From: Oxalobacter formigenes
Lineage (GTDB): Bacteria; Pseudomonadota; Gammaproteobacteria; Burkholderiales; Burkholderiaceae_D
Direction: 5' to 3'
Assembly: GCF_002127965.1 (NCBI RefSeq)
Contig: NZ_CP018787.1
Location: 1,426,001-1,490,000 of the forward strand
DNA length: 64,000 bases
The translations under genes and the position numbers were made by a program. Positions 555-13,968 of the stretch are shown here, one piece after another (positions within the stretch are counted from its first letter, which is position 1; the number at the start of each line of letters is the position of its first letter). The notes below the pieces were generated by a model. It was not told where the DNA came from. It did not search any database and saw only the letters and a list, made by a program, of their open reading frames with translations.

Positions 555-2006
555 TTATGAATCCTCTGTTTTCATGACATCCGTTATCTTGATCAACCTC
601 TCCGATACCGCTGCATCCGAATCAAACAATATCCCCGCGTCGGCATACTGCTGGCGTTCGGCAATGATTTCAGCCAGAACGGCATCGGGGTCACCACCCA
701 ATTCCCTGATACTTTCTGATACGGATTTCATCCCTGCCCGTTGCGCTTCTTTTGCAGCCATAACATCCTTGACCGGATCAACCCAGGCCTTTTTAGGCAT
801 CGTCACTGACATTCGTGATGGTTTTCCTCGCAAAGCGCCAGATAGAATGGCTGATTTCTGCCATGCCCAGCAAATCGGGTTAATGAGCATCGGCACCAGC
901 GCAAGCCACTGTTCGGCATTGATAATTTGCCTAAACTCCACCAGACCGGCACGGTAAGACGAATAATTGAACTTCGATAAATCGCCAGTCATCTGCGAAT
1001 ACATCACGCCCATACCGGCGGCAATGGCGTGCAATTGGGTGTTGGTATAACCTTCATATCCCCCCGATTGTGACGGTGAAGCAAATTCGATGGCATCCGC
1101 ATTGTCGATTCTCGTTATCATGCCGGGGGCGAGTGTTTCCGTCCGTTGTCCTGATGCCGTTTTACCCTGTTGGCCAACATTCAAACCGCCATTGTCCGAG
1201 CGAATGAATACGGCGAAACAGGCTTCTATCTTTTTGCGAACCAGTTCGGCTTGTTCGTAATCGGCCACATCACGCAAGCGCATGAGCGCCACGGCTAATT
1301 CAGACATTCCTCTGACCTGCGATGCCCGTTCTTTCCGGTAGTAATGGAGGATATATCTGGCCGCCACCCTGATGCTGTCCATCCCGTTTTTCCAGCTCAT
1401 TCCGGCAATCTCTCCCGGATGAGTCTGGAAAAGCCAATACGCACAGCGCCTGCCTGAACGGTCAAACTCCACACCGGCAATCACGAAATGCCCGTTATCC
1501 AGTTCACCTATTTTGCTTGTATCGAGATGATCAGCTTCGAGGACTTGCAACTGTAACGGAACTGACAATCCCTCATAAAGCCCGGTATGATGCAGGCGAA
1601 TCAGCACTTCACCATCGGTATAACGATGACGTACAGCCAATTCCAGCAATCCATTGAAATTCAGTTGCCCGTCATAATCACACTGATCACACCATGCTTC
1701 CCACAATCCGTTATCCGGAGCTTTAACCGTTATACCGTCCCCGATTGTATTAGCCACCAGCGCACGAATGGCCGACCGTCCATATTCGTTGTTTCGGACA
1801 ATATCCCGTCCTCTGGCACGAATACGGGACAGTTGCGGCGCAATTTCAGCATTGGCACTGCCGTTTGTAGCGTGCCATCCAGCTGTTCGTCTGCCAACCT
1901 TGCCCGCATCGTATGATCTGGCCATATTCAGAGACATACGCGCATACGCCCGGCGAACGGCAGCAGCGGGCGACACGTATTCAACCATTCGATCTATCCA
2001 GTTCAT
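555..2006 (-). CDS. Phage portal protein, lambda gpB family
   Basis: 483 residues, normal for the lambda-type portal family (PF05136). It would form the dodecameric ring at the head vertex through which DNA is packaged and to which the tail joins. The N-terminal MNWIDRMVEYVSP start and the segments NPICWAWQ and MRLRDVADYEQAELVRKK are typical of this family. The ATG at 2006 lies 4 bases after the stop of the gpW-like gene, which fits tight translational coupling in the packaging operon. No truncation is seen. Confidence 0.92.
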   Translation of the reverse strand: MNWIDRMVEYVSPAAAVRRAYARMSLNMARSYDAGKVGRRTAGWHATNGSANAEIAPQLSRIRARGRDIVRNNEYGRSAIRALVANTIGDGITVKAPDNGLWEAWCDQCDYDGQLNFNGLLELAVRHRYTDGEVLIRLHHTGLYEGLSVPLQLQVLEADHLDTSKIGELDNGHFVIAGVEFDRSGRRCAYWLFQTHPGEIAGMSWKNGMDSIRVAARYILHYYRKERASQVRGMSELAVALMRLRDVADYEQAELVRKKIEACFAVFIRSDNGGLNVGQQGKTASGQRTETLAPGMITRIDNADAIEFASPSQSGGYEGYTNTQLHAIAAGMGVMYSQMTGDLSKFNYSSYRAGLVEFRQIINAEQWLALVPMLINPICWAWQKSAILSGALRGKPSRMSVTMPKKAWVDPVKDVMAAKEAQRAGMKSVSESIRELGGDPDAVLAEIIAERQQYADAGILFDSDAAVSERLIKITDVMKTEDS

Positions 2007-2009
2007 CCG

Positions 2010-2228
2010 TTAATCCCTCGAAAATATTGCCAGCGCTGCCGGTCCCCTGTTACTGTTTCCGCCCGATATCAAGCCGCTGGCGGTCAGCTCGCTGCGCATC
2101 AGGTTCCTCACCCGGAGCAGTTCATCCATCGAGCGATACCGCACCCGTTTTCCGCCGTAATCCACTTCCAGCAGACCATTTGCCAGTGCTTTTTCCACTG
2201 CATTGAATTGTTCAACTGTGAATGCCAT
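2010..2228 (-). CDS. Phage head-tail joining protein, gpW-like
   Basis: A 72-residue protein matching the size (lambda gpW is 68 residues) and position of gpW, between the terminase large subunit and the portal. It contains the family-like pattern ALANGLLEVDYGGKRVRYRS followed by a helical segment with MDELLRVRNLM. gpW binds the connector after DNA packaging and provides the seat for further tail joining proteins. The short spacing to both neighbours supports co-translation. Confidence 0.85.
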   Translation of the reverse strand: MAFTVEQFNAVEKALANGLLEVDYGGKRVRYRSMDELLRVRNLMRSELTASGLISGGNSNRGPAALAIFSRD

Positions 2229-2236
2229 TTATCCCC

Positions 2237-4372
2237 CTATAACCAGTTATCGTTACCTCCTCTGCAGAGCCAGTTTGACCCGACACCCAGCCAGTTATCC
2301 GGTTCCGGCTCTGGTTCTGGTTCGGTCTTATGTTCCTGTTCCGGTTTCGTTTCTGGTCTCGCTGTCGCTGTTTCAACAGTTTGCTTTTCCGTCTCAAGCT
2401 GCCGTTTTTCCGGTTCGGTTTCGGATATTTTCGCACCTGAAAGCGAAACGGATGTTCCACTCTGTTCCATCGCGTTCCGGTCATTTTTTTCATGTTCGTC
2501 AGCTTGTTTAAACAGATCAGGAATGCGCGGTTCGATCAGAGTTTTCAAATGTTCCCAGTCCGCTGCCTGAAACCGGTTAATTCGTACATTGGGATGACAG
2601 GCAGCAGCATAGGCATACACCCATGTATCCAGCGCCTCGTTACGCTGCCTTATCTTGACGTAACGCCCTCGCCGATCATCGTACACTTCCGCTGTCATCT
2701 GTTCGTAGAACTCCGTCGGCAATCCTTCAGGGAAACGAACCATCCTTTTTTCAGGTGCAAGATATTGTTCTGTTTCGCCTGAAATCTCGACGTCACTCGC
2801 CAGACGCGAAAACAAGGCGTTCTTGGCCGTATCGGTACCGACAGACCAAACCATTACCCCGTTCTTCTGAACGTCACCACGGGCGTTTTTGACGTCCTGG
2901 CGTGTCGGTCTGGACAGGATCGGCCGATTCGTTTCTTTTGCGCCCTTGACTGCAATAACTCTGTCGAAACGACATTGCCGGACATGGTTGTAAACCCTGT
3001 GCGTGTTGTAACCGGTATCGATTGCCGTCATGGATATTTGCAAATCCACGCCAAAGGCATTGCGAACCGGTGAATGTCGATACTTTTCCAGCGCTTCCCA
3101 CACTTCCGGTTTTTCCGGATCGCCATGAATAATGACGTAATCGATGGTTGCGCACCGTTCGTTTTCTCCCCACCCCACAAGATGACCTTCCAACCGGTCT
3201 TTCTGAACGTCCACGCCCAGCGTCAGAACGAAAATGCCTTCCGGAACCGTCCGTACCGGCCAGCTTTCTGCCCGTTTTTCAAGATCAACGCCTTTAACCC
3301 TGTCGCCGAAATCTTCATAAGGCAAACCTTTCTGCAGGTTAATGAACGGCTGTAATTTGGCCGGATCATTGCAAGCATCCAGCCATTTCTTCGCAATCTC
3401 GACCCAAGTAAGCCCAAGCCCGATAGGCGAATACAAGGCATTGATGTGATAACCTAGCCTTTCCCGTTCCGGATGGGCATGTATCCAGCAGGCTCCGTTT
3501 TCCTCGGCCAGCATCCACGGCTTGAAGCGTTCTTCGATACAACCGCCACAATGTGGACAGACATATGCTGCCGTCTCCGGATGATGTATTTTCTTTCCGT
3601 CTTCGCCGACCGTTTTCTGCCAGATCAGATTTTCAAATTCAAGCGTCTGCAGTTCTACACAATGCGGACACGTCACCCAATATTTCGCCTGTGATGAGCG
3701 TTCATATTCTTTGGCGATATGTGACGTTTCTTTCCGTCCCGGTGTCGATGCCTTATACCGTTTTGCACGTGCAAACGTCACTGTCCGCTGTTCAGCCAGT
3801 GAAATAGGATCGCCTTCGCCGTCGACATCGATCGGGTAACGATCCGTTTCATCCAGAGCCAATTTCTTGATCGGCATGGATGCCAGTGCCGATGCCGCAT
3901 TGGCGCCGGTCATGACGAGCACACCACCTGGAAATTCCTTGACCAACGTTGTGTTGCCGCTATCGCGTTTCCTTGATGCCGGTATTTTTGCCAATAATCG
4001 TTTGTTCAATTCGATCATTGGCGCAATACGCTGTTTACTGTACTTTTCTGCCGTGTCCACCGTCGGCTGTACTGTCAGCATCGGGGCCGGTGCATGATCG
4101 ACTGTGTAGCCGATCCAGTTCAGCAAGACTTCCGTTTTTCCGACCTGCGAAGCGGCCATGAAACAAATATCCTTTGCAGGATGCTCATCCGATAGCGTGT
4201 CCATGATTTCACGCAAATACGGCGTTCTGGATGTCCTCCACAACCCCGGTTCAGCAGAGGCCTTACCGGACAACATCCTGTTTTTATCTGCCCATGTACT
4301 GACTTTCAGTTTTTCCGGTAATTTCCACGCTTTGACCACGGCATGACAGATTGCCTTGTAGCCATCAAGCAT
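2237..4372 (-). CDS. Phage terminase large subunit, GpA family
   Basis: ATP-driven DNA packaging motor and cos-cleaving nuclease, 711 residues from the chosen start. An ATPase P-loop variant ASQVGKTE lies near residue 75 and a Walker B-like ALDETDRYP near 171. The nuclease part begins around LTLGVDVQKDRLEGHLVGWG. The ATG at 4372 is chosen over an upstream in-frame ATG at 4399 because GGAG lies 8 bases before it and it overlaps the small-subunit stop by 8 bases (ATGCTTGA). The C-terminal tail is unusual: a charged stretch with EPEPEPEP and a repeated NWL, which may be the prohead-binding end. Confidence 0.93.
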   Translation of the reverse strand: MLDGYKAICHAVVKAWKLPEKLKVSTWADKNRMLSGKASAEPGLWRTSRTPYLREIMDTLSDEHPAKDICFMAASQVGKTEVLLNWIGYTVDHAPAPMLTVQPTVDTAEKYSKQRIAPMIELNKRLLAKIPASRKRDSGNTTLVKEFPGGVLVMTGANAASALASMPIKKLALDETDRYPIDVDGEGDPISLAEQRTVTFARAKRYKASTPGRKETSHIAKEYERSSQAKYWVTCPHCVELQTLEFENLIWQKTVGEDGKKIHHPETAAYVCPHCGGCIEERFKPWMLAEENGACWIHAHPERERLGYHINALYSPIGLGLTWVEIAKKWLDACNDPAKLQPFINLQKGLPYEDFGDRVKGVDLEKRAESWPVRTVPEGIFVLTLGVDVQKDRLEGHLVGWGENERCATIDYVIIHGDPEKPEVWEALEKYRHSPVRNAFGVDLQISMTAIDTGYNTHRVYNHVRQCRFDRVIAVKGAKETNRPILSRPTRQDVKNARGDVQKNGVMVWSVGTDTAKNALFSRLASDVEISGETEQYLAPEKRMVRFPEGLPTEFYEQMTAEVYDDRRGRYVKIRQRNEALDTWVYAYAAACHPNVRINRFQAADWEHLKTLIEPRIPDLFKQADEHEKNDRNAMEQSGTSVSLSGAKISETEPEKRQLETEKQTVETATARPETKPEQEHKTEPEPEPEPDNWLGVGSNWLCRGGNDNWL

Positions 4373-4967
4373 GATCTTCTCCGGATAGATGTTTCTCAAT
4401 CAGTTCAGATACCGTTTTTTCCATCGTGCTGCATATCTTTTCGCATTCGTCTGTAATCAGAGCATGGACCTTTGCCGGATCCGTTTCAGCCGCGATCTGT
4501 TGCGTCAGGCGTTCCGGAATTTGCATTAAAGCCGTTCTGGCCGCCATGTGCGTATCCACCACCGCCTTGACGATGGGTTCCACCATGGCAATAAGCCCTC
4601 TTTGCTTTGCCAGTTCAATTTTTTTCAGCTCGGCTTCAGCCCGCTCCCTATCCGCCCGTGCCTGATGGTAGTCGCTTTCCTGTTCATCACTTACAAAAGG
4701 GCTGACTGGCTTGTTTTTTGGTGCTTCGGACACTGGTTTTTCCGGTAACGTGATCTCTTTTCCATCACGATAGGCATTCCAGCGATCACGAACTCCGACC
4801 TTGCTTGGATCGCCCGTCGCTTCGATCAGGCGCAAGCTGGCTTCGACGTTGACCTGTTTCCCATCTTCCGACAAAACGATACGTTTCTGGTCTTTCAGCT
4901 TCGTCACATATGACACGCCGCAACCGTATATTTTGGCGAACACGGATTTTGTGACAAAACCATTCAT
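4365..4967 (-). CDS. Phage terminase small subunit, Nu1-like
   Basis: A 200-residue DNA-recognition subunit of the packaging terminase. The N-terminus (FVTKSVFAKIYGCGVSYVTKLKDQKRI) looks like the winged helix-turn-helix of Nu1-type proteins that bind cosB. A charged coiled-coil-like middle (RADRERAEAELKKIELAKQRG) would mediate oligomer formation. The end overlaps the large-subunit gene by 8 bases. The candidate cos region lies immediately upstream. Confidence 0.85.
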   Translation of the reverse strand: MNGFVTKSVFAKIYGCGVSYVTKLKDQKRIVLSEDGKQVNVEASLRLIEATGDPSKVGVRDRWNAYRDGKEITLPEKPVSEAPKNKPVSPFVSDEQESDYHQARADRERAEAELKKIELAKQRGLIAMVEPIVKAVVDTHMAARTALMQIPERLTQQIAAETDPAKVHALITDECEKICSTMEKTVSELIEKHLSGEDHA

Positions 4968-5040
4968 GCAAACATCCTTAATTTCACTTAAAATATTGAT
5001 TTCACTACATATATTTCACTAACTTCACCAAGCTGTGACC

Positions 5041-5093
5041 AGCGAAAACACGCGGTTCGAATTACCCGCATAGGCGCCCCAAGGGAAGGACCC
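5041..5093 (-). other. Candidate cos (cohesive-end) region
   Basis: A GC-rich island in an otherwise AT-rich gap just upstream of the terminase small-subunit gene, which is where cos lies in phages with Nu1/GpA terminases. The minus strand reads GGGGCGCCTATGCGGG and, further on, CCGCGTGTTTTCGCT. The latter resembles the right part of lambda cosN (CGCGGGTTTTCGCT, recalled from memory). No cleavage site can be proven from sequence alone. The open frame across it looks incidental. Confidence 0.45.
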
Positions 5094-5105
5094 ATATTTT
5101 TCAAT

Positions 5106-5120
5106 TGAGAATGATTCTCA
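5106..5120. promoter_or_regulatory. Fur-box-like palindrome TGAGAATGATTCTCA
   Basis: A 15-base perfect inverted repeat (TGAGAAT-G-ATTCTCA) that closely resembles the classic GATAATGATAATCATTATC Fur-binding motif. It lies inside the prophage between the tail-Z-like gene and the terminase genes, close to the candidate cos site. It could be an iron-responsive operator or a phage protein site. The match is visible, but its role is inference. Confidence 0.4.
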
Positions 5121-5156
5121 TTTACAATATCGTGATCTGTACCCGAATCATTGCCC

Positions 5157-5924
5157 TCAGCCTTTTGATGTACCCGATCCAACAACTTGGACAAAAGTTT
5201 CCTTGAGATTCTTTTCAAAATGTCTCTCTGCAGATTTTTCCGTTGCATAAAAGAAATCCAGACGTTGCCCATAGACCGGATACGGAACAAACATCATGAT
5301 CGGCTTGACTGCCGAACCCTGCGCTAACTGATACCGTGCCCAGATACCGGCAGCAAACTTGTCTGCTCTACCTTTCGAAACAAAGTAGCTGACTCCCTGT
5401 TTCGTTTTTGTTCCGCGTGCTATCGACTTGCGCCGTTTATCTGTCATGTTTGCCCGATAACCTTGCTCACCGAATGCTTTGAAATAAGCAAGAATCTGAA
5501 CAATCAAACCTCGTGGCATGTTGCCATATGAATCCAGCTGAACCCCTGACCCAGGCACAACGATATGGTTGCTCGGCAAGATACCAATAGAGCGCAAAGC
5601 CACCTCAAACCGTTTGAGCGGACGAACCCCACCGAAAACTTGCGGTAATAGATATTTGCCAGCTGGAATGCCTTTGCCCCCGAATGTTTTGAAACCGACT
5701 GTTGCTTCAAGTTTTGATTTTGAAGCCGCTTGAATGTACGTGCTGTTTAACGTGTATGGCGTCGGTCGATCGAATGAATCCGTCATTTCATGTTTCAGAT
5801 CGGCTTGCAAATCCTTGGCCGTCATCGTCAGACTCTTTGCTGCGATAAATGGAATCTGGCGGGCAATATGATCGTCAATCGACTCTTGCAATTCCTTCAA
5901 GCCCTTTATTTCGATTTTCATCAT
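5157..5924 (-). CDS. Phage minor tail protein Z-like protein
   Basis: About 256 residues from ATG 5924 (or the adjacent ATG at 5921). An open frame reaches back to 5945, but that extension runs into the terminator stem of the upstream gene, so the later start is better. The N-terminus (KIEIKGLKELQESI, then IPFIAAKSLTMTAKDLQADL) has the pattern of the tail-assembly gpZ/HK97-gp10-like proteins. The C-terminus is basic and helical. Its place upstream of the terminase, where lysis genes are usual, is odd; no holin or endolysin is seen between the Q-like gene and the terminase. Confidence 0.55.
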   Translation of the reverse strand: MMKIEIKGLKELQESIDDHIARQIPFIAAKSLTMTAKDLQADLKHEMTDSFDRPTPYTLNSTYIQAASKSKLEATVGFKTFGGKGIPAGKYLLPQVFGGVRPLKRFEVALRSIGILPSNHIVVPGSGVQLDSYGNMPRGLIVQILAYFKAFGEQGYRANMTDKRRKSIARGTKTKQGVSYFVSKGRADKFAAGIWARYQLAQGSAVKPIMMFVPYPVYGQRLDFFYATEKSAERHFEKNLKETFVQVVGSGTSKG

Positions 5925-5930
5925 GACAAT

Positions 5931-5957
5931 AAAAAAGCCCTGCAAATTTTGCAGGGC
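5931..5957 (-). terminator. Intrinsic terminator after the 5978-6769 gene
   Basis: On the minus strand a 10-base-pair stem GCCCTGCAAA/TTTGCAGGGC is followed directly by TTTTTTATT. It ends transcription of the unknown gene at 5978-6769 and separates it from the tail and packaging genes. Confidence 0.85.
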
Positions 5958-5977
5958 CTGCTGTATAAAAAATAGAA

Positions 5978-6769
5978 CTATTCGTTATCGGTGAATATCT
6001 CATGAACATCAATAATCTTATACATTTTGGGTACATCCTCAACTGTTTCAACAAATACATCGACAAGAAAATAGTCTTGAAAAGGATAAGGACGTTCGAA
6101 TAGCATTTTCTTTTTCAATTCCTCATTTTCGAACGTCACCCTGATCGGTTTTGGCGAAATACTTTCAATTATTGCCTTGTCTCCCACAGTATTGCTTGTC
6201 TGATTCTTAGCTTGATCCCAATGTAATAACACTTTATTGCGAACGCCAACCAGAGGAACTTTAAGAATCTCTATTTCCCTACGTGCATTATTCTGAATTG
6301 TATTGGCTTCTGGAGAATGAAAATGGTAATGGACACTAATTTCACCATTTACATTTACGGTATCGATTCTGAAAGAGCCTTTAGCATCTTTAGCAATTGG
6401 GTCAACGATATCCATAATATTTTCAAGTGTCTTTTTTTCGATCACAGCAGGTCTGTCAACCTTATTTCCAGCAAGCCAATTTAATAACACGACAAGTCCT
6501 CCCCCAAACGCAACCAATGTATTTATGTCTTCCATATACGGAAGCAAGGATGAGGTTAATCCCACTAGCTCGGTGATAATACTGCCAGACCTTACGTCTT
6601 TAACGTAAAGACCGGCATCAACAGGTGGCAGCCCCAACTCTTTTTCTACGTAACGCTGATATTCATTACTGACACCCAACATACATTCGGCCAGATCCCT
6701 CACATCTACCGGTCGGCTGTTCTTGATTGTCAACACGAGTTTTGATTCATCAGGCATGACGAGCTCCAA
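5978..6769 (-). CDS. Unknown AT-rich prophage gene (moron-like), possible single membrane segment
   Basis: 263 residues, not recognised with certainty. The N-terminal 85 residues look globular (DVRDLAECMLGVSNEYQRYVE, then LYVKDVRSGSIITELV). A hydrophobic stretch around INTLVAFGGGLVVLLNWL could be one membrane helix. The remainder is a mixed domain with NVNGEISVHYHFHS. The gene has its own downstream terminator, is clearly more AT-rich than the phage late genes, and lies between the late regulator and the tail gene. These are features of a moron, a gene expressed from the lysogen. A role in host protection is possible but unsupported by any motif. Confidence 0.6.
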   Translation of the reverse strand: MELVMPDESKLVLTIKNSRPVDVRDLAECMLGVSNEYQRYVEKELGLPPVDAGLYVKDVRSGSIITELVGLTSSLLPYMEDINTLVAFGGGLVVLLNWLAGNKVDRPAVIEKKTLENIMDIVDPIAKDAKGSFRIDTVNVNGEISVHYHFHSPEANTIQNNARREIEILKVPLVGVRNKVLLHWDQAKNQTSNTVGDKAIIESISPKPIRVTFENEELKKKMLFERPYPFQDYFLVDVFVETVEDVPKMYKIIDVHEIFTDNE

Positions 6770-7064
6770 CTGTTTATTCAGTTAGTAATTTACTCGTGCT
6801 CAACCATTTTTAGAATCGAAAATAACTTTTCCTTATAAAAATTAAACTTATCTGCTACAAATAAATATGATTACTGAGCAAAGTATTGAAAACGCAATAA
6901 TTTCTTGTAAACTGTAAGGTTATTCATAAAAAAATCCCTGCCGAAATAGGTCAGGGATTAAAGAAAATAGTCTTTGAGTAACAGCTCTGCTTGAGCATAG
7001 CAATAATGTAACGAAAAAGTGTAATTTTTCAAATAGTCACTTTGTCTAAGTTCGGCTTGACAGT
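6770..7064. other. AT-rich intergenic region with promoter potential and one terminator
   Basis: 295 bases of AT-rich sequence between the unknown gene and the Q-like gene. It contains the terminator at 6928-6959 and A/T-rich stretches that could hold the private promoter of the 5978-6769 gene. No convincing -35/-10 pair was fixed and no open frame of interest is present. Confidence 0.4.
6928..6959 (-). terminator. Intrinsic terminator after the Q-like gene
   Basis: The minus strand reads AATCCCTG, an 11-base loop, CAGGGATT and then TTTTTTATG. It lies about 105 bases downstream of the Q-like gene and would block read-through into the unknown gene unless antitermination acts. Confidence 0.8.
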
Positions 7065-7424
7065 TTAAATCACTTGTTTATAATCGCGCGACCCAATTAA
7101 AACCTGTTGTTTCAACGCGCTCATTCGGTTATAGACTGTCTTGTTGGCACATCTATGATGAAATGCAATAGAAGACACCGGCAAGCCCTTCACATACCAA
7201 TCCCACCCCATCCAGAACAACGATGGTTTTTCTGCCTTCACCCTGGACATAATGCCGTCGATCATCATTACATCAGCATCGACCAGCGCAACCGTACCAG
7301 AACTCCCGCCAGACAATTCAACCCTGAATGTCGGCGATTGAGCAGGAAACCCGCAAACCCCTTTTTCCTTCAGTGCCGAAAACAATCCCCATTTTTTCAA
7401 TTTTTCGTCTGCCCAATCGCTCAT
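7065..7424 (-). CDS. Putative late-transcription regulator (antitermination Q-like)
   Basis: 119 residues, the last gene of the leftward early block and just before the late genes, where Q-type regulators lie. The C-terminal half (PVSSIAFHHRCANKTVYNRM) resembles a helix-turn-helix or sigma-region-4-like segment, and the middle VDADVMMIDGIMSRVK is typical of small phage late regulators. A function in switching on the packaging and head genes is inferred from position and fold only. It could also be an ArpU/RinA-type activator. Confidence 0.5.
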   Translation of the reverse strand: MSDWADEKLKKWGLFSALKEKGVCGFPAQSPTFRVELSGGSSGTVALVDADVMMIDGIMSRVKAEKPSLFWMGWDWYVKGLPVSSIAFHHRCANKTVYNRMSALKQQVLIGSRDYKQVI

Positions 7425-7474
7425 TTCATCTTCTTTCTTTATTTTATTGATTCATGTCAATTTTTTAATGGTTT

Positions 7475-7750
7475 TGTGAACAGTATGAATAGTTATGTTA
7501 ATAGTTTTGTGAATAGTTTATTTTTTATAACATATTGTTTTTATTAATATTTTTTAGGTATGTGAATAGTATGAATAGTTTTATCCCTATACGCGCGAGA
7601 AATTATTTCATTCTCGGAAAAATATGCATCTCGCGTGTGCGCGCGCACGTGTAGAAAAAACTGTTCATACTGTCCATACTGTTCACAAAGCCTTATTTCA
7701 TGCGGGTTCTGACGTGTTAACAGTTTTTCGAAACTATTCATACTGTTCAC
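7475..7750. repeat. Iteron array (GTGAACAGT-type) next to the primase gene, likely phage replication origin
   Basis: At least ten copies of a 9-10 base element of the form [G/A]TGAAYAGT. On the plus strand they start near 7475, 7485, 7496, 7508, 7561 and 7571. In inverted orientation they lie at 7660-7668, 7669-7677, 7678-7686, 7732-7741 and 7742-7750. The two arms flank an AT-rich stretch (7518-7560) and a CGCGCG-rich stretch (7591-7650). The unit is close to the type I iterons bound by P4 alpha protein (GGTGAACAG[A/T], from memory). The P4-alpha-type primase-helicase gene ends inside the right arm. This fits an origin where the initiator binds inverted iteron clusters. Confidence 0.7.
7544..7750 (-). 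CDS. Small open frame across the iterons, doubtful gene
   Basis: 68 codons from a GTG overlapping the primase stop. The peptide has repeats (NSMNS, EQYGQYEQ, TIHTIH) that simply mirror the iteron DNA repeats. Translational coupling to the primase is possible, but the frame may exist only because the iterons have a 9-base period and so avoid stops. Listed as doubtful. Confidence 0.2.
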   Translation of the reverse strand: MNSMNSFEKLLTRQNPHEIRLCEQYGQYEQFFLHVRAHTRDAYFSENEIISRAYRDKTIHTIHIPKKY

Positions 7751-10260
7751 ATTTCCTGTTGTGTGTAAACGTTCCGGTACTTTTTAAGATGCTCTTCAAA
7801 AAGACTTGACGCCCCCTCAACCCAGCCACTGATCGTTTTATCGTCCGGCTTGTCTCCGACCAGATAAACAGTCCTCTGCTTGACATCACTGTTCAGGTCA
7901 TACTTGATCAATGACTTCCTGACCAATCCTTTTCCTATCCGGTCTATCGTTCGACCGAATAGCGTCAATGTTGGGGGCCATCGCTCGCCACTCACTACGC
8001 ACCACCGCTGGAAACCTGAATAGAGTTGTTGAGCGGAACAACTTATAAACGGAAGGGGAAGGAAACCCTGCGACCAGTTATGAAAAAAACGCTCTGGTGG
8101 CGACATGCTCAACGTAATAAGATCGTCCTTTGCCTCGGTTCTGGGCGGGTCGGTGTACTCGTCAAAACCATCAAACGTGACGGTATTAAGCAAAAAATCA
8201 TAAAAAGCCTCAATACCGCCGTTATTCGCCTCTTCAGCCACAGCGCGATAAAACTCTTTCTCCCGTTTTGGCGGTGTCCAGAGAACAAGATAACGCCTGT
8301 CTGAACTATCCAGAACCAGCGGTTGCAACTCATTCGAAAGAAACACAAAATTCATGTGATTTGCTTCTTCCCTGGCATTCAGGTTTTTCGGATTAACCAT
8401 CACCGTATCGCCAGAAATGATTTTTTTCAATCTGCCTTTTGTCGCTTTAAGCTCTGATCGAGTAATCACCTCATCAGCCACTACAAACAGCTTCTTGCTG
8501 GCCCAGTCGTTAAACTGGTTTTCCAGCTGTTCACTGCCGATAACCCCGCCATACTCGCCGTATATCCGACGCACAATGATTTCCCAGAACAGGTTTTTAC
8601 CCGAACCTTCATCACCGTGCATCACAATACTCGTCCGCATTTTTGCGCCGGGGTTTTGCAGTGGGTAGGCGATCCAGCGCAATAACCACGTCATAACCGC
8701 TTTATCACCATTGGACAGGTGCCCGACCAGCTCCATGATTTTTTGATAAGAGCCTTTTTTCGGTTGAATCGTCCAGCCGTGATAAAGGTTTATTGCGCCG
8801 ATCATGTCCTCTTTATGCCCAGGATCGAAAATAACGCGGTCTTTATTGACGATCTTTCGCTCACCATTGTTCAACCAGAATTTAACCTCGTCGCTGCCGT
8901 ATGCCAGCCTTAAATTCGCGATCTTGATGAACATGTGGCGGTCACTATCGTAAGCCTCGTCCGTTCCGTAAATCAGAACAAACTTATCGAGCAGAAAATT
9001 AACTTTTTCCCAGAAATTAGCGCCCCGTTCCTTGATCTTGCGACCGCCCCTTTCCCCCTTGCCGTCGGCACTTTTTCCACCTTTTTTGTTGACTGGCAAC
9101 GGCTTTCCGGACAGAGCAGCATCGATAGCCGCCTGAACCTGATCTTTGACCACATCAAGCGATTCATGAACATGCAGATCGTTGAAATCCGTCCATTTAT
9201 TTGTTCCCCGATCTTTAAAAACCGGCCAGACTACCGACGCATTACCTGCATCAATCGCCGCATTTTTGGCACCGTAAATCCCTGCATTTCTGAACGTGAG
9301 TGAACGTCCATGTCCATTCCGTATGACTTCCGAATAAATGTAATCGTCGCCGTGCGGATCTTTTTTAAGCCCTGATGTGACACGCACAGGCATCCCGTCT
9401 TTATCAATCAGGTCGTTTTGAATACCGGAAAGTTCCGGAATATCAGAAAGCCCGTAATCAGTTGTCAGGCGTTCAGCGTACCGCTGCCGGATCAGATAAT
9501 CATCATCGGCAATGAAGAGCAAATGCGCCTCTGGCCAGTCCCGTCTTACCCAGCGTATGACGCGCATCAGATTACCCACGTCAAATGCCACGATAGCCGG
9601 ATATTTCCGGTCTGTCGCCATCCGAACAGATTGCATCGTTGCGTACCCCTCGCCAACCATGATCAGCTGGGGGGCGAGGGGAATTTCTCCTAATATCAGG
9701 CCTGCACCGTCTTTTTGCATCCCTTTATTAAACCGTTTATCGCCGGCTGGATCGATCTTTTGTAATCCAACAAGATGTTGGCCATCCGGGTCATACTGAT
9801 ACGCAGGGACAAATACGGATCCATCCGGCGCGATTTTCGCCCCGTCGCCATCAATACCCTTGCGCTGCAGATATGGCGAAATAACCCCAGCTTCCGGCTT
9901 GACTGCCTCCCATTGCGTTTTCGCCCGGTTTGCGGCAAACGTCGCCATTTTCCGGCGCTTTTCAGCTTCCCGATCGTCGAACTCTTTTTGTTTTTTGAGG
10001 GCCAGTGCTTTTTCTTCATCGGAAATTCCTTGCCAATCGATTTTGACGGATACTGCATTATTGTTTTCGCCCTGCCAGATTCCGAATGCGCCTGTCACGA
10101 CCTGACGGCCCGACTTGAGCGTAATGTCACGCAAGGCATACCATGCTTTCTTACCGGGTCCAAATCGATGAATCTTGCCATCAAGGACTGGATGCCCTGA
10201 AGGCAACATCGGCAGACCGCAAGCCGTCATCTGGTCGATAACCGATGTCAGATTACTCAT
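7747..10260 (-). CDS. Phage replication primase-helicase, P4 alpha-like (TOPRIM plus SF3/DUF5906)
   Basis: 837 residues. The N-terminal region leads to a TOPRIM-type fold with VGEGYATMQS near residue 202 and IADDD near 250, which binds metal for primer synthesis or regulation. A linker of basic residues (390-412) follows. The C-terminal helicase has Walker A HGDEGSGKN near 548 and Walker B-like FVVADE near 592. Together these fit the alpha-type proteins that combine primase, helicase and origin binding in satellite phage P4 and many prophages. It overlaps the KilA-N gene by 8 bases upstream, and the iteron origin lies at its 3' end. Confidence 0.9.
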   Translation of the reverse strand: MSNLTSVIDQMTACGLPMLPSGHPVLDGKIHRFGPGKKAWYALRDITLKSGRQVVTGAFGIWQGENNNAVSVKIDWQGISDEEKALALKKQKEFDDREAEKRRKMATFAANRAKTQWEAVKPEAGVISPYLQRKGIDGDGAKIAPDGSVFVPAYQYDPDGQHLVGLQKIDPAGDKRFNKGMQKDGAGLILGEIPLAPQLIMVGEGYATMQSVRMATDRKYPAIVAFDVGNLMRVIRWVRRDWPEAHLLFIADDDYLIRQRYAERLTTDYGLSDIPELSGIQNDLIDKDGMPVRVTSGLKKDPHGDDYIYSEVIRNGHGRSLTFRNAGIYGAKNAAIDAGNASVVWPVFKDRGTNKWTDFNDLHVHESLDVVKDQVQAAIDAALSGKPLPVNKKGGKSADGKGERGGRKIKERGANFWEKVNFLLDKFVLIYGTDEAYDSDRHMFIKIANLRLAYGSDEVKFWLNNGERKIVNKDRVIFDPGHKEDMIGAINLYHGWTIQPKKGSYQKIMELVGHLSNGDKAVMTWLLRWIAYPLQNPGAKMRTSIVMHGDEGSGKNLFWEIIVRRIYGEYGGVIGSEQLENQFNDWASKKLFVVADEVITRSELKATKGRLKKIISGDTVMVNPKNLNAREEANHMNFVFLSNELQPLVLDSSDRRYLVLWTPPKREKEFYRAVAEEANNGGIEAFYDFLLNTVTFDGFDEYTDPPRTEAKDDLITLSMSPPERFFHNWSQGFLPLPFISCSAQQLYSGFQRWCVVSGERWPPTLTLFGRTIDRIGKGLVRKSLIKYDLNSDVKQRTVYLVGDKPDDKTISGWVEGASSLFEEHLKKYRNVYTQQEM

Positions 10261-11098
10261 TGACGCCCCCCTGGATTTTATTCAGGGCTTTATCGGCCTT
10301 GATCCTGACGAATTGAAGCAGTTCTTCGATTCGTTCTTTTTCTTCATTCAGTTTGTGCAGGAGCGCATTGCCAAGGGTGGTTGTCTTGACAACTCTTTTT
10401 GCATACATCAGATTTAGTCTTCCGCCGGCGACACATCGATATTCAACCGCACGGCGCAAATGATCAATACAAAGGTCATAACATTCCCGCGACATTTCCC
10501 ATGCCTTTTTTTCCATATCATCGGCCAGACTTTTCGGAATATCGACGCTGGAAACAGGAAGACCTTCCCGCATCATTTCAGCGATATCAACAGAAGACAT
10601 CGATTTCGTTTCTTGAGGAATCCAGATATCCAGATCGTCAACCTTTCCAGAAAGATAATCGGACATCAATTCACCCCGGATTTCCCGGTATTTTTCCATT
10701 ACCAGAACGTGCGCACGCATGTTGATGGCGGTTTGCTCTTCGGTAGTAATGACACGGACGGCCGGAAGTGTGCTTACAACCTGCGCTTTCGCGGAATCCA
10801 GAAACACACGAATGACCTTGAGATGGAATGCAGGGCTGATCCATGCCGCGTAGGCAATGACTAGTTCTTTACAAACATAAGAACCCTGTGCCCGCCCTTT
10901 TCCGGCAACTGTATTTAAGCTCCTCATATGTGAGGAACTATCAATTTCAGAAATTAAAGCCTTTGTTGCCTCAAGCCGCAAAAAATTGGAGGGCTGATGT
11001 TTTTTATTGCCACCGCTGGCCTTATGTAAATCATTGAGAGAATATAAACCGTCTTGCTGACGGATGGCGGACGAACCGATAGATATGATGTTAGTCAT
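10253..11098 (-). CDS. KilA-N domain phage protein (antirepressor-like)
   Basis: 281 residues with a KilA-N DNA-binding domain at the N-terminus (LYSLNDLHKASGGNKKHQPSNF, then VCKELVIAYAAWISPAFH). A middle segment from about residue 113 (AVRVITTEEQTAINMRAH then EKYREIRGEL) is shared with the neighbouring BRO-N protein. The C-terminal helical region is unknown. Its Shine-Dalgarno (ACAAAGGAGT) is complementary to a loop of the C4-like RNA just upstream, so its translation or transcription is probably controlled by that RNA. Proteins in this place act as antirepressors in P1-like immunity systems. Confidence 0.85.
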   Translation of the reverse strand: MTNIISIGSSAIRQQDGLYSLNDLHKASGGNKKHQPSNFLRLEATKALISEIDSSSHMRSLNTVAGKGRAQGSYVCKELVIAYAAWISPAFHLKVIRVFLDSAKAQVVSTLPAVRVITTEEQTAINMRAHVLVMEKYREIRGELMSDYLSGKVDDLDIWIPQETKSMSSVDIAEMMREGLPVSSVDIPKSLADDMEKKAWEMSRECYDLCIDHLRRAVEYRCVAGGRLNLMYAKRVVKTTTLGNALLHKLNEEKERIEELLQFVRIKADKALNKIQGGVNE

Positions 11099-11813
11099 GG
11101 CTGACTCCTTTGTAGCGTTTTGAATTTTCGCTACCCGCTTCTAAACGGGTGGGCGAAACCGTGCGGATTAGAAGACCGGTTACAAAGGAACCCGGCGCAC
11201 CCGAAGATGCCCCGCACGGCTCGCCCATAAAAAGAGACTTGCCACGGACATAAAAAAACCGCTTTGATGGCGGTGTCCGCCTTTGTATATCCGAGCTTCT
11301 AAACCCGACGCTGTTTTTTTCCAGCGCAGATGTAGCATAGCCGGATAGTTGACGGCTTGTCAACTCACCCCGGATTTCCCGGTATTTTTCCTGTGCCAGA
11401 ACGTGCGAACGCATGTTGATGTTGGTTTGTTCTATCGTAGTGAGAATGCGCACGGCTGCAAGCGTATTTCTAGCATGTTGCTCCACCTCTTTATCCAGAA
11501 TATCCAATACCCATCGCCGGAATTCTTTTGCCTTCGATGTTCTGGAAAACATGGCAACCAAATGAGCGCCACGAAGGGAAAAAAGACGGACGGTTTTTTG
11601 AATATTCCCCGAGACGGTCAAATTGACCGTCTCGGACATATCTGCCGTAAATTCATCAGCATTACGTCTGTATATCCGGCTTATTGCATCATCGGATTGA
11701 TAACCCAATGACTTTGCGATATCGGTCGCAGAAAAATAGGTTTGATTGTTTTGTCGAATAATCGACAGAGATACGCCGTTAAAAACGAGCGCAGGCAATG
11801 AGGATTTAGGCAT
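11091..11813 (-). CDS. BRO-N domain protein fused to an Icd/Ash-like C-terminus
   Basis: 240 residues. Residues 1-100 form a BRO-N (Bro/P22-Ant-like) DNA-binding domain (SIIRQNNQTYFSATDIAKSL, later LFSLRGAHLVAMFSRTSKAKEF). Residues 118-155 match the linker of the KilA-N neighbour (AVRILTTIEQTNINMRSH, EKYREIRGEL). From about residue 165 the frame reads PPSKRFFYVRGKSLFMGEP and ends NSKRYKGVSHD, which looks like the small cell-division-inhibitor (Icd/Ash-like) products of P1/P4 immunity regions. That part also encodes the C4-like RNA and its first target. The last 8 bases overlap the KilA-N start. Antirepressor function is inferred. Confidence 0.75.
   Translation of the reverse strand: MPKSSLPALVFNGVSLSIIRQNNQTYFSATDIAKSLGYQSDDAISRIYRRNADEFTADMSETVNLTVSGNIQKTVRLFSLRGAHLVAMFSRTSKAKEFRRWVLDILDKEVEQHARNTLAAVRILTTIEQTNINMRSHVLAQEKYREIRGELTSRQLSGYATSALEKNSVGFRSSDIQRRTPPSKRFFYVRGKSLFMGEPCGASSGAPGSFVTGLLIRTVSPTRLEAGSENSKRYKGVSHD
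11106..11302 (-). ncRNA. C4-type antisense RNA with two target pairs (RNA core 11151-11226)
   Basis: On the minus strand the core closes with GGGCG/CGCCC (11226-11222 with 11155-11151) and CCGCACGG/CCGTGCGG (11219-11212 with 11166-11159). Inside are a C(UUCG)G hairpin and a hairpin CCGGGTT...AACCGG whose loop shows CCTTTGT, followed by CTTCTAA. These are complementary to two downstream sites, TTAGAAG (11144-11138) and TACAAAGGA (11114-11106, the KilA-N ribosome site). The same two target words recur upstream at 11302-11296 and 11287-11280. Two antisense words and two copies of the target pair are the design of P1/P7 C4 RNA, which terminates or blocks expression of ant. The call rests on this pairing, not on a database match. 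Confidence 0.75.
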
Positions 11814-11869
11814 AGTAGCCCCCTTGAGTATAGCGTTTTGAATTTTCGCAATGATTGCGGCTTGACTCC

Positions 11870-11898
11870 TTGACCTTTTGTAACCGATTGGTTACAAT
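11870..11898 (+). promoter_or_regulatory. Promoter and palindromic operator of the toxin-antitoxin pair
   Basis: TTGACC (11870-11875) and TACAAT (11893-11898) are spaced by 17 bases. Between and over them lies the perfect inverted repeat TTGTAACC-GATT-GGTTACAA (11878-11897), a good autoregulation site for the antitoxin. The expected transcription start falls at or next to the toxin ATG at 11905, so the mRNA may be leaderless. Confidence 0.75.
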
Positions 11899-11904
11899 AG
11901 AACC

Positions 11905-12198
11905 ATGAAATACACAATCAAACAAACCGAAACATTTAAAACGTGGCTCAAAACAGTCAAGGATAGAACGGCATTTATTGCCATCATCAGAAGACTTGAA
12001 AGAGCCGGAAACGGCAATTTCGGGGATGCCAAGTCGATTAATGACGGTGTTTCTGAAATGCGCGTCGATGTCGGTGCAGGTTATCGCTTGTATTACACCA
12101 TTCGCGGAAATGAGATCGTGTTTTTCCTGAACGGTGGAAAAAAGTCCACACAGAAATCGGATATTAAAATCGCAAAAAGCAAGGCGAAAGGAATTTGA
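11905..12198 (+). CDS. Type II toxin, HI1419/RelE-HigB-like
   Basis: 97 residues, matching the short killer proteins of the HI1419 family, related to RelE/HigB mRNA interferases. Typical features are FKTWLKTVKD at the N-terminus, GNFGDAKSINDGVSEMRVDVGAGYR in the middle and GGKKSTQKSDIKIAK at the end. It would cleave translated mRNA when free of antitoxin. It lies 3 bases upstream of the antitoxin gene, with the toxin-first order usual for this family. No Shine-Dalgarno is visible before the ATG. The pair lies on the strand opposite the phage replication operon. Confidence 0.88.
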   Translation: MKYTIKQTETFKTWLKTVKDRTAFIAIIRRLERAGNGNFGDAKSINDGVSEMRVDVGAGYRLYYTIRGNEIVFFLNGGKKSTQKSDIKIAKSKAKGI

Positions 12199-12201
12199 AA
12201 A

Positions 12202-12486
12202 ATGACTGAAAAAACACACACTTTTGACATAGTTGAATATCTGGACAGTGAAGAAAACGTCCAGGAATATTTCAGACAAGTCATGGAAGACGGCGACTCC
12301 GATGAAATTATCCGGGCGCTCGGCCACATCGCCAAAGCGCGGGGCATGATGAAACTTGCAAATGATACCGGACTCGCCAGAGAAAGCCTTTACAGGGCGC
12401 TTTCTGAAGGCGCAAAACCGCGTTTTGACACGATTATGCGCGTCACTCAAGCCCTTGGCCTGAAACTGACTATTGCGCACGGCTGA
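12202..12486 (+). CDS. Type II antitoxin, HI1420-like helix-turn-helix protein
   Basis: 94 residues, the usual partner of HI1419-type toxins. The C-terminal half is a helix-turn-helix (MMKLANDTGLARESLYRALSEGAKPRFDTIMRV), which would bind the palindrome over the promoter. The N-terminal acidic part (DIVEYLDSEENVQEYF) should neutralise the toxin. It follows the toxin gene after 3 bases and converges on the 12513 gene. Confidence 0.88.
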   Translation: MTEKTHTFDIVEYLDSEENVQEYFRQVMEDGDSDEIIRALGHIAKARGMMKLANDTGLARESLYRALSEGAKPRFDTIMRVTQALGLKLTIAHG

Positions 12487-12512
12487 CCGATAAAACAATA
12501 GGTGGTTTGCAG

Positions 12513-12908
12513 CTAACATGCTGCACCTCTCCCAACAACAACCTGAAATGCCCAATCATCCAGAAATTCTTTTCTATAAACGACTTCACGTGATGATTTT
12601 ATTCGGACTGGTGTTGGCGATAGTTCCAACACCGGTTTGCGTTTTTTTGGTCCGGCAACCTTGCGGTTTGGTGTCGGTGCATCTTTACCAACTCCGAAAG
12701 CAAATACTCTTGAAAATGCATAGTCGCCCTCAAGCCAATCAGCAACATAAACCGTGCCATTTTTCCTTTTCTCGACTCGGATTTTACGCACGTGCTTATT
12801 GATCGTTTGACTGCAAAAACCTGTCTTTTCAGCGAGTTCTTTTACTGTCGCCGGTTTTTCTTTCAAGGCATCAATAATCTCTTTTTTTATATCTCTTTTG
12901 GTTTTCAT
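12513..12908 (-). CDS. Phage winged helix-turn-helix protein, unknown role
   Basis: 131 residues. The N-terminal 55 residues look like a winged helix-turn-helix (ALKEKPATVKELAEKTGFCSQTINKHVRKI). The rest is basic and not recognised. It overlaps the upstream gene by ATGA and so belongs to the leftward early operon. A role in replication control or gene regulation fits, but nothing more exact can be said. Confidence 0.65.
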   Translation of the reverse strand: MKTKRDIKKEIIDALKEKPATVKELAEKTGFCSQTINKHVRKIRVEKRKNGTVYVADWLEGDYAFSRVFAFGVGKDAPTPNRKVAGPKKRKPVLELSPTPVRIKSSREVVYRKEFLDDWAFQVVVGRGAAC

Positions 12909-13210
12909 TCCGACACCTCGTCAGTAAAAAACAGGCTGAAATCATCAATCACGTCGCTGATATAAAAATTCTGGTTATAGATCCCGACCAAAGCCTCATG
13001 CTTTTCCGTCACAAACGAAGCAAACCGCAAGCCCGATGACTTCATGATTGTTATCCGCCCGCAAAAGCTGAACACTGCGACAGAATCGGATGTTTGCCTC
13101 AATGCGCAAACAAGACGTCGGACGGCCTCTGTCAGTGACGTTTTTTCTGACAGCTTTCTTTTTCGAAGACTTTTCCTGACTGGTTTTAACGACATGGTTC
13201 TGGATATCAT
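12905..13210 (-). CDS. Small phage protein of unknown function
   Basis: About 101 residues from ATG 13210, chosen because AAGGAAG lies about 8 bases upstream and it almost touches the stop of the YmfL-like gene. An in-frame ATG at 13228 is the alternative. The N-terminus is very basic (KPVRKSLRKRKLSEKTS), followed by a compact alpha/beta-like segment with no known motif. It ends in an ATGA overlap with the next gene. Confidence 0.55.
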   Translation of the reverse strand: MISRTMSLKPVRKSLRKRKLSEKTSLTEAVRRLVCALRQTSDSVAVFSFCGRITIMKSSGLRFASFVTEKHEALVGIYNQNFYISDVIDDFSLFFTDEVSE

Positions 13211-13211
13211 T

Positions 13212-13670
13212 TCAGTCTTCCTTTTCATGTTGCTTGCAATAGATTCGAAATGTGAGCGCCAACAGTTCCTGTACCAGCTTATTTACCCCCTCACCTGCCG
13301 CCGACAGATCCTGACGTTCTCGCTGATCGACCACATCATCAGAAATCGCCCTGCTGAATTTTCCGGAAAATTCGCCTACTTTCGCGTAGAGTGCATTCCA
13401 CTTTTCCAGCAGTTCATCGTTTCCGATATCAGACACATCCGGCAATTCGACAAAAACCCCACCACTTAACGACGCCACTGCATCAGCAAAGAACGTTGTT
13501 CCACTGAAGGACTGGATCTGCAACTCTTCATCGGCCGTAAAATCCTGCCCCTTCCGGTTATATAACCGGTTATCAAATGCATGAATCGTCATTCCCATTG
13601 CCACTGCTAGCGCATCTTTTCCGCCGGGAAACGACTTGATCATTTTGAGATTTGCCTGCCTCACATTCAC
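13212..13670 (-). CDS. YmfL-like (CII-type) phage regulator
   Basis: 152 residues from a GTG start. The N-terminal part (MIKSFPGGKDALAVAMGMTIHAFDNRLYNRKGQDFTADEEL) is the pattern of YmfL-family proteins from e14-like prophages, which look like CII-type DNA-binding proteins. It lies second in the leftward early operon after the Cro-like gene, where CII normally lies. The C-terminal half is helical. Confidence 0.75.
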   Translation of the reverse strand: MNVRQANLKMIKSFPGGKDALAVAMGMTIHAFDNRLYNRKGQDFTADEELQIQSFSGTTFFADAVASLSGGVFVELPDVSDIGNDELLEKWNALYAKVGEFSGKFSRAISDDVVDQRERQDLSAAGEGVNKLVQELLALTFRIYCKQHEKED

Positions 13671-13695
13671 AGCGTTTGCCCTTTCCCTGTGGTTT

Positions 13696-13902
13696 TTAAT
13701 TTTGGCGATTACAGTTAAATTGATTACATTGAACAGCAGCGACAGTTTCTGGATACACAGCCTTTAAATACATCATCCTGGCATCCGGAATCCCTTGTTT
13801 TCGCCACTTTGAAACAGCCTGCGAACGGATGCCAAAAATGTCAGCCACTTTGACGGAACCGCCAAGCTCATCAATTAATTTGGAGTCGTTTAAATGAATC
13901 AT
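13696..13902 (-). CDS. Cro-like helix-turn-helix regulator
   Basis: 68 residues from ATG 13902. Longer open frame upstream is hydrophobic nonsense that runs through the operators. The motif GGSVKVADIFGIRSQAVSKWRKQG is a clear Cro/YdaS-type helix-turn-helix. It is the first gene leftward from the operator cluster at 13912-13968 and divergent from the CI-like gene, the normal Cro position. Confidence 0.85.
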   Translation of the reverse strand: MIHLNDSKLIDELGGSVKVADIFGIRSQAVSKWRKQGIPDARMMYLKAVYPETVAAVQCNQFNCNRQN

Positions 13903-13911
13903 ATTAGCGAT

Positions 13912-13968
13912 TGTAACCATAGTTACACAGAAAAAGCAAATTATAGTTACAAAAAAATATGTAACCAT
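13912..13968. promoter_or_regulatory. Left operator cluster of the lysogeny switch
   Basis: Between the Cro-like and CI-like genes lie TGTAACCATAGTTACA (13912-13927), a 16-base imperfect palindrome, plus the half sites TAGTTACA (13944-13951) and GTAACCAT (13961-13968). The same word is found again at 14468-14558. They are probably sites for the CI-like and Cro-like proteins. Confidence 0.75.

Follow-up and report, generated by a model that had tools for sequence, protein, structure and literature searches.

Organization of the locus

The window, by which we mean the whole stretch of 64,000 nucleotides of Oxalobacter formigenes DNA analysed here, carries on its minus strand a BRO-N gene, a KilA-N gene and a primase gene in a row, and a C4 antisense RNA with its target sites lies at the junction of the first two. 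The genome also has an oxalyl-CoA decarboxylase match of 887.7 bits, above the cut-off of 739.4 (which 1 of 14 control genomes exceeds as well), in keeping with Oxalobacter. The features, numbered from the first letter of the window, are as follows.

7747-10260, minus strand: P4-alpha-type primase-helicase, the next gene downstream (DUF5906 7.9e-21; phrog_2249, DNA primase, 8.2e-126)
10253-11098, minus strand: KilA-N protein of 281 aa, the predicted target, antirepressor-like (PF04383 3.8e-22; phrog_2812, phrog_129)
11091-11228, minus strand: short orf45/Icd-like frame, 45 codons plus stop, with its AUG at the 5' end of C4 and its stop overlapping the KilA-N start
11091-11813, minus strand: BRO-N frame of 240 aa (PF02498 7.1e-14; phrog_5060, anti-repressor, 1.1e-38)
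11107-11114, minus strand: downstream loop target (b2) TACAAAGG, complement of the C4 loop word and part of the KilA-N ribosome site
11138-11144, minus strand: downstream segment target (a2) TTAGAAG, complement of the C4 segment word
11145-11232, minus strand: C4 antisense RNA (RF01695, 75.7 bits; fold z -4.2), loop word at 11181-11188 and segment word at 11168-11174
11251-11274, minus strand: intrinsic terminator (stem 11274-11258 plus T-run), between the upstream targets and C4
11252-11327, minus strand: IsrK/seqA-like leader, comprising a hairpin, the segment target in a hairpin loop, the loop target, the antiterminator and the terminator (fold z -3.3)
11269-11281, minus strand: predicted antiterminator GGCGG-ACA-CCGCC, from the minimum free energy (MFE) fold of the leader, of which GG is also part of the loop target and CCGC also part of the terminator
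11280-11287, minus strand: upstream loop target (P1 name b1) TACAAAGG, complement of the C4 loop word
11296-11302, minus strand: upstream segment target (P1 name a1) TTAGAAG, complement of the C4 segment word
11334-11363, minus strand: sigma-70-like promoter TTGACA-18-TATGCT, 10/12 consensus, in the 3' part (last third) of the BRO-N frame
11360-11465, minus strand: 106-nt repeat in BRO-N, 81% identical to 10666-10771 in KilA-N (spacing 694)
11831-11849, minus strand: 19-nt repeat before BRO-N, identical (100%) to 11113-11131 before KilA-N (spacing 718)

The BRO-N frame passes through the promoter, the leader and C4 and ends with a stop codon that overlaps the start of KilA-N. The BRO-N and KilA-N genes and the P4-alpha primase had been proposed in a sequence-only reading of this DNA, and the Pfam and PHROG matches given above agree with all three assignments.

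The BRO-N and KilA-N proteins have 43 aa in common at 72% identity, and the direct repeats suggest that the two units are a tandem pair with a common leader and middle and with different N-domains. The promoter begins just where this shared part ends, so the C4 unit may have cost BRO-N its C-terminus. We considered the 19-nt repeat as a common motif of C4 leaders and rejected it, because it was found behind C4 in one of 139 loci, namely the window, and is therefore a local duplication. The leader of BRO-N resembles that of KilA-N, but where the latter has the loop target its bases differ.

On the plus strand at 11905-12486, back to back with BRO-N, there is a toxin-antitoxin-like pair (Gp49-like and dnstrm_HI1420 antidote), which is preceded by the inverted repeat GTAACC-GATT-GGTTAC. 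The minus-strand order at 555-13968 is regulators, Bro-type genes, primase, Q-like protein, terminase and portal, and it resembles the Bro-Replication-Late part of the satellite order given in the accessible portion of PMC10111431.

The C4 RNA and its four target sites

The Rfam search that the sequence-only reading had proposed as a check returned a full-length match to the C4 family RF01695 at 11145-11232 on the minus strand (model positions 1-87 of 87), with 75.7 bits against a cut-off of 45; the absence of such a match, one of the refuting outcomes named there, thus did not come about. The RNA folds with -44.1 kcal/mol (z -4.2), a stability reached by 0 of 200 shuffles, and the MFE structure has the long outer stem, the structural hairpin, the target-binding hairpin loop and the exposed interhelix segment. 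The exposed words are CCTTTGTA in the loop (11188-11181) and CTTCTAA in the segment (11174-11168). Complements of both lie at the ribosome site of the next gene and are duplicated upstream, as in members of the family, and the downstream TACAAAGG is continuous with the KilA-N ribosome site TACAAAGGAG, with the start codon at 11098. When the two flanks were dinucleotide-shuffled 20,000 times, the four sites occurred together 0 times, and single sites arose 378-505 times each.

The RF01695 match and the four sites bear out the claim of a C4 antisense RNA with duplicated targets. The architecture of P1/P7 C4, which the reading had named, stands as to the two words and the two target pairs; the Icd-like end that it described in the BRO-N gene holds by place only. 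The window frame has no match to NCBIfam phage_ICD_like or Pfam Phage_ASH, and we therefore reject its membership in the Icd protein family.

Targets mostly follow the C4 RNA of their own locus

We searched 13 genomes of the genus, 399 of the order and 369 of the class for C4 RNAs and obtained matches (E up to 0.001 for the order) in 7, 55 and 24 of them respectively, the window's genome being counted in each. The window, the second C4 of its genome, the other matches in genus and order, P1, P4, Gifsy-1 and a Bordetella phage gave 139 loci, among which 133 fold to the C4 shape by MFE alone; the 6 unparsed ones were left out. For each target site we counted complements of 7 nt or longer, both to the C4 of its own locus and to C4s exchanged between loci.

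Own C4s score far above swapped ones at every site: 104/133 against 166/2611 for the loop upstream, 101/133 against 81/2611 for the loop downstream, 117/133 against 328/2611 for the segment upstream and 110/133 against 229/2611 for the segment downstream. With a minimum of 6 nt, 93 of the 133 loci have the full set of four sites and 40 lack at least one. A second set was made of the class matches outside the order, 27 of 52, being those with loci returned; 25 were parsed and 2 dropped. Here the loop is matched in 19/25 upstream (37/596 swapped) and 21/25 downstream (21/596), and the segment in 22/25 upstream (47/596) and 22/25 downstream (18/596). Targets thus mostly follow the C4 of their own locus and not those of other loci, and therefore the window locus is a C4 module. 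The words vary between loci (the 133 loci have 123 distinct loop regions), as one would expect if they set immunity specificities.

The second C4 of the genome uses different words, and its targets GTGTACGG/TGTACGGA and TTGGTCG match its own RNA; because of these other words the two C4 units of the genome should not cross-react. The gene behind this second C4 is related to the BRO-N gene of the window (50% identity over residues 8-115).

A predicted switch in the leader

The transcript of leader, C4 and KilA-N presumably starts at the promoter-like site 11334-11363. Promoter-like sites show no excess at 9000-13500 (6 found against 5.9 in shuffles), and across 113 C4 loci promoter scores at the equivalent place exceed those of shuffles. 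With isrK (RF01394) the leader reaches 48.7 bits (E 3.4e-9), slightly below the cut-off of 50, so we call it isrK-like and not a member by score; against c4-a1b1 (RF03163) it scores 23.3 bits at 11340-11288 and does not reach the cut-off of 46.7. Terminator-like sites at 9000-13500 number 9 against 5.9 in shuffles.

In the best fold of the window leader GGCGG-ACA-CCGCC is paired and the terminator is not formed. The 5' arm of this antiterminator starts within the loop target, and its 3' arm covers most of the 5' arm of the terminator. P(terminator), which is the mean pairing probability in equilibrium and not co-transcriptional folding, with targets masked to mimic bound C4, rises from 0.04 unmasked to 0.97 when both targets are masked, and also to 0.97 with the loop target alone. 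The leader hence looks, from these folding models, like an RNA switch that lets C4 end its own transcription early, and the antisense attenuator thus predicted is the most interesting part of the unit.

For the terminator counts we took the loci with both upstream sites of at least 6 nt, namely 113 of 133 and 23 of 25 in the second set. A terminator-like hairpin lies between the upstream targets and C4 in 80 of the 113 loci against 118/2260 mononucleotide shuffles; this is by the revised scan, an earlier and greedier version having given 73/113. Averaged over the 80 leaders, P(terminator) is 0.49 without masking, and it reaches 0.79 when both targets are masked and 0.73 when only the loop target is. 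As controls, other windows of loop-target size shift it by -0.009 on average, and in leaders shuffled before the terminator masking at the place of the loop target changes it from 0.68 to 0.71.

The effect is unevenly distributed. Half of the 80 leaders stand at 0.5 or more unmasked; among the 40 below 0.5, masking both targets lifts 27 above that value, and masking the loop target alone lifts 24. The 27 flipping leaders form 18 clusters at a loose similarity of 0.8, which are not to be read as 18 independent origins. A shift of more than 0.2 is a rise in 37/80 and a fall in 2/80. In 17 of the 40 low leaders no other window outperforms the loop target; in the rest at least one does. The second set has a terminator in 12 of 23 leaders with a mean going from 0.52 to 0.81; 5 of the 12 are low and 4 of these flip, one leader drops from 0.67 to 0.02, and the mean effect of masking other windows is +0.017. 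A switch is accordingly predicted by folding for a subset of C4 leaders, the window among them. The leaders of L046, L050, L088, L092 and L105 have no T-run and carry a GGAC...GTCC-type hairpin between targets and C4, which is perhaps a processing site.

Comparison with P1, P4 and Gifsy-1

Like the window, P1 (NC_005856) has two C4 words and target pairs on both sides, with a1, b1, a2 and b2 annotated around c4, where a is the segment target and b the loop target. Three of its four pairings reach at least 7 nt by our scan; for the downstream segment the match is 5 nt long, although the annotated a2 has TTGACAG. The two differ in that in P1 C4 is followed by icd and ant1/ant2 and the scan used finds no terminator-like hairpin, whereas the window has KilA-N directly behind and BRO-N before.

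In P4 the CI RNA scores 74.9 bits with RF01695 and seqA 60.8 bits with RF01394, the terminator lies between the seqA-like targets and CI, a DNA primase is in the same record, and both RNA matches fall within one frame of 214 aa (8812-8168), presumably eta. According to the accessible portion of PMC10111431, the Rfam models C4 and isrK detect CI and seqA, and eta translation prevents termination. This arrangement, i.e. CI/C4 and seqA in one long frame of the Bro network, is found again in the window frame 11813-11091, with a leader that is isrK-like below the cut-off. The sequence-only reading had taken the position of C4 in a BRO-type gene as a sign of a new branch, a claim that finds no support, since the P4 CI RNA lies in eta; the locus is a genuine C4 unit, an eta-like nested variant that presumably guards KilA-N. 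P4 differs from the window in its terminator, which forms unmasked (P 0.97) with no antiterminator, while the window has a predicted one, and no KilA-N was seen behind CI among the 130 downstream ORFs that include that of P4.

Gifsy-1 shows the same order, with isrK at 79.3, C4 at 69.0 and c4-a1b1 at 48.1 bits. Its target gene is different (anrP), and no switch is predicted, the terminator forming unmasked with P 0.99 and no antiterminator. Its orf45 starts at an AUG equivalent to that of the window's short frame: the first AUG (107, numbered from the isrK match) is the one at the C4 5' end. In the accessible text of PMC4825925, isrK G28A and G31A and orf45 C162U and C159U raise anrP translation, and the double mutants G28A/C162U and G31A/C159U have the wild-type conformation on gels, with anrP expression going from 484 to 224 and from 926 to 327 units (wild type 4), a partial rescue. 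We find that the mutated bases lie in IsrK 26-32 TTGGCGT, the upstream segment target, and in C4 158-164 ACGCCAA, the segment; mutations published as those of an sRNA acting on its own mRNA thus fall on C4 pairing sites and lend the proposed module support from a relative. The same text describes IsrK as an activator acting in trans, likens it to P4 seqA with a role in termination considered, and likens STnc1160, an RNA downstream of IsrK, to P4 CI; the phrase "C4 antisense RNA" has 0 occurrences there. It also reports that co-expressed orf45/STnc1160 strengthened the growth arrest by IsrK, which argues against a simple decoy model.

Genes behind C4 and relatives of the window genes

The longest ORF behind each C4 was taken as the downstream gene, and 9 of the 139 loci without an ORF of the required length were set aside, which left 130. 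Since some of these picks are not the true gene, the family counts (Pfam, E up to 0.001) are lower bounds: at least 17 Bro-N, 7 Rha, 4 DUF1484 and 4 ORF6C. KilA-N stands directly behind C4 in at least one of the 130, namely the window.

KilA-N relatives in genome contigs were found at 2 loci (45% over 135 aa). When 21 contigs with KilA-N relatives were scanned (19 of 28 viral ones and the 2 from genomes), 19 had no C4 or sRNA-Xcc1 at the cut-off; the exceptions are L154, which is the window's own prophage, and L178, where C4 is about 3 kb from KilA-N. BRO-N relatives occur in viral contigs at 4 loci, one being the window's own prophage, and the three that were scanned with Rfam had neither C4 nor sRNA-Xcc1. 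The BRO-N relative of Vibrio phage 1F53_PE003 (58.6% over residues 1-116) has isrK and C4 immediately before it. The RNA region itself has relatives in 4 phage records (about 70%). What is unusual in the window is KilA-N as the direct target, the BRO-N/KilA-N tandem and the predicted antiterminator.

Proposed mechanism and alternatives

The best explanation is, very probably, a C4-type antisense immunity module with a predicted antiterminator switch. The fold and score of C4, the four sites, the terminator and the nested frame can be read from the sequence itself; use of the promoter, processing of C4, repression, a decoy role and KilA-N as antirepressor are parts that we infer. Transcription from 11363-11334 would give an RNA with the first target set, the terminator, C4, the second target set and the KilA-N gene. 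In the lysogen C4 would be cut from read-through transcripts, and its hairpin loop and interhelix segment would pair with the second target set and cover the KilA-N ribosome site. On the first target set C4 would break the GGCGG/CCGCC antiterminator and let the terminator form, and early termination would then limit further C4 and KilA-N mRNA as a feedback, while the short leader RNA may serve as a decoy for C4. With little C4 present, as in early infection, or with ribosomes translating the BRO-N frame across the region, read-through would follow and KilA-N protein would be made.

The alternative that survives best, quite conceivable although we hold it for somewhat less than an even bet, is that the BRO-N frame through C4 is a true nested gene like P4 eta, whose translation overrides termination; it is compatible with the module just described. 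The same nesting in P4, together with the role of eta (accessible portion of PMC10111431), speaks for it, and in the window 195 in-frame codons ahead of the C4 AUG stay open. In 105 C4 loci with an AUG at the 5' end of the RNA, the frame of this AUG stays open for at least 26 codons, through C4, in 87. Upstream of the AUG it is open for at least 250 nt in 23 of these loci, and the other two frames are so in 14 and 11. This weak excess speaks against the alternative, as does the finding of Bro-N in only 2 of 18 long frames of this kind, which were chosen by length. Moreover, the part shared with KilA-N ends at the promoter, and the C4 unit may simply have truncated the BRO-N gene. As general rules, two candidates were rejected: a strong coding signal of the through-C4 frame (only 23/105 against 14 and 11), and coupling of that frame to the next gene (its stop lies near the picked gene start in 19/88).

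We regard it as rather unlikely that C4 only blocks KilA-N translation, as in the P1 picture, with the terminator and upstream targets passive and the antiterminator a by-product of GC-rich hairpins. Such a reading gains from P1, which has no terminator-like hairpin by the scan used, from P4 and Gifsy-1, which have no predicted switch, and from the half of leaders that form the terminator unmasked. It does not account for upstream targets that track their own C4 about as strongly as downstream ones, for a terminator that recurs behind them, or for a mean masking effect that shuffled leaders and other windows do not reproduce; and in P4 CI acts on termination at seqA, as stated in the accessible portion of PMC10111431. 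A dead remnant, i.e. a broken C4 unit without function, is very improbable: BRO-N seems shortened, but the four sites are exact, C4 scores 75.7 bits, the promoter-like site has 10/12 consensus, and the KilA-N and primase frames are open.

sRNA-Xcc1 as a candidate second class

The RNA sRNA-Xcc1 (RF02221) resembles C4 in having 87 positions, an outer stem and two hairpins, and in loop and interhelix words that are copied upstream and near the next ribosome site; it differs in being a separate Rfam family with no clan entry and in weaker downstream sites. The window has no match at the cut-off, nor is there one at 10900-12000 with E up to 1. Seven phage or plasmid KilA-N loci were scanned: sRNA-Xcc1 stands before the KilA-N relatives of Vibrio phage VaK (65.9 bits), Pasteurella phage Pmp14 (65.1) and an IncL/M plasmid (73.0), before that of Moraxella phage Mcat13 with 49.3 bits, below the cut-off, and not at the cut-off in SfII, CASP1 and Emek.

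These four KilA-N loci and 44 loci from 26 of the 369 class genomes (21 of the 44 over the cut-off) made 48, of which 47 were tested and 1 was dropped for short flanks. At 7 nt or more, own against swapped matches are 30/47 against 124/915 for the loop upstream, 35/47 against 112/909 for the segment upstream, 20/47 against 58/920 for the loop downstream and 18/47 against 51/921 for the segment downstream. Leaving aside 7 of the 48 loci without a downstream ORF of the required length, SymE stands downstream in 6/41 and KilA-N in 5/41, 4 of the 41 having been pre-chosen for KilA-N. A terminator-like hairpin shows a small excess, 5/29 against 30/580 shuffles, among the 29 of 48 loci with both upstream sites close together. 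L190 and L194 have a CCAAC...GTTGG hairpin before a T-run, with a loop longer than the scan allows. The sRNA-Xcc1 at L190 1383-1468, L192 1383-1466 and L194 1381-1463 has target copies of its own words, as C4 has.

The window's genome, which also has two C4 units, carries four sRNA-Xcc1 matches (1510134-1510221, 1574105-1574189, 1525406-1525493 and 2071834-2071920 of the contig), all outside the window and one of them over the cut-off. In the accessible portions of PMC12444791, PMC2996969 and PMC12189769, sRNA-Xcc1 appears as a virulence-linked sRNA or before symE with "a divergent regulatory mechanism", and a C4-type mechanism is not given for it; the accessible portion of PMC12189769 has both sRNA-Xcc1 and "C4 antisense", the latter in a table of Rfam hits. 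The link to C4 may already have been made in the 2011 sRNA-Xcc1 paper or elsewhere. Judged by its words and their copies, sRNA-Xcc1 may be a second C4-type class, and it gains a specific candidate mechanism.

Discussion

C4-type RNAs are known from P1 and P4; here the upstream copies of the targets would form a concrete attenuator, as modelled by folding. We see an even chance for the following wider picture: two-word antisense immunity RNAs would comprise at least two classes, C4 and sRNA-Xcc1, that guard shared genes of phages and mobile elements (Bro-N, KilA-N, Rha, SymE and others), and many C4s would also flip an antiterminator to a terminator through the upstream target, i.e. act as a trans-acting antisense attenuator that controls its own supply.

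Several such RNAs can stand close together. Genome G669 has four C4 matches in about 1.4 kb (contig C9, 1700-3092), and in Xylella five sRNA-Xcc1 copies about 380 bases apart are described in the accessible portion of PMC12189769; arrays of either RNA may be sets of immunity specificities.
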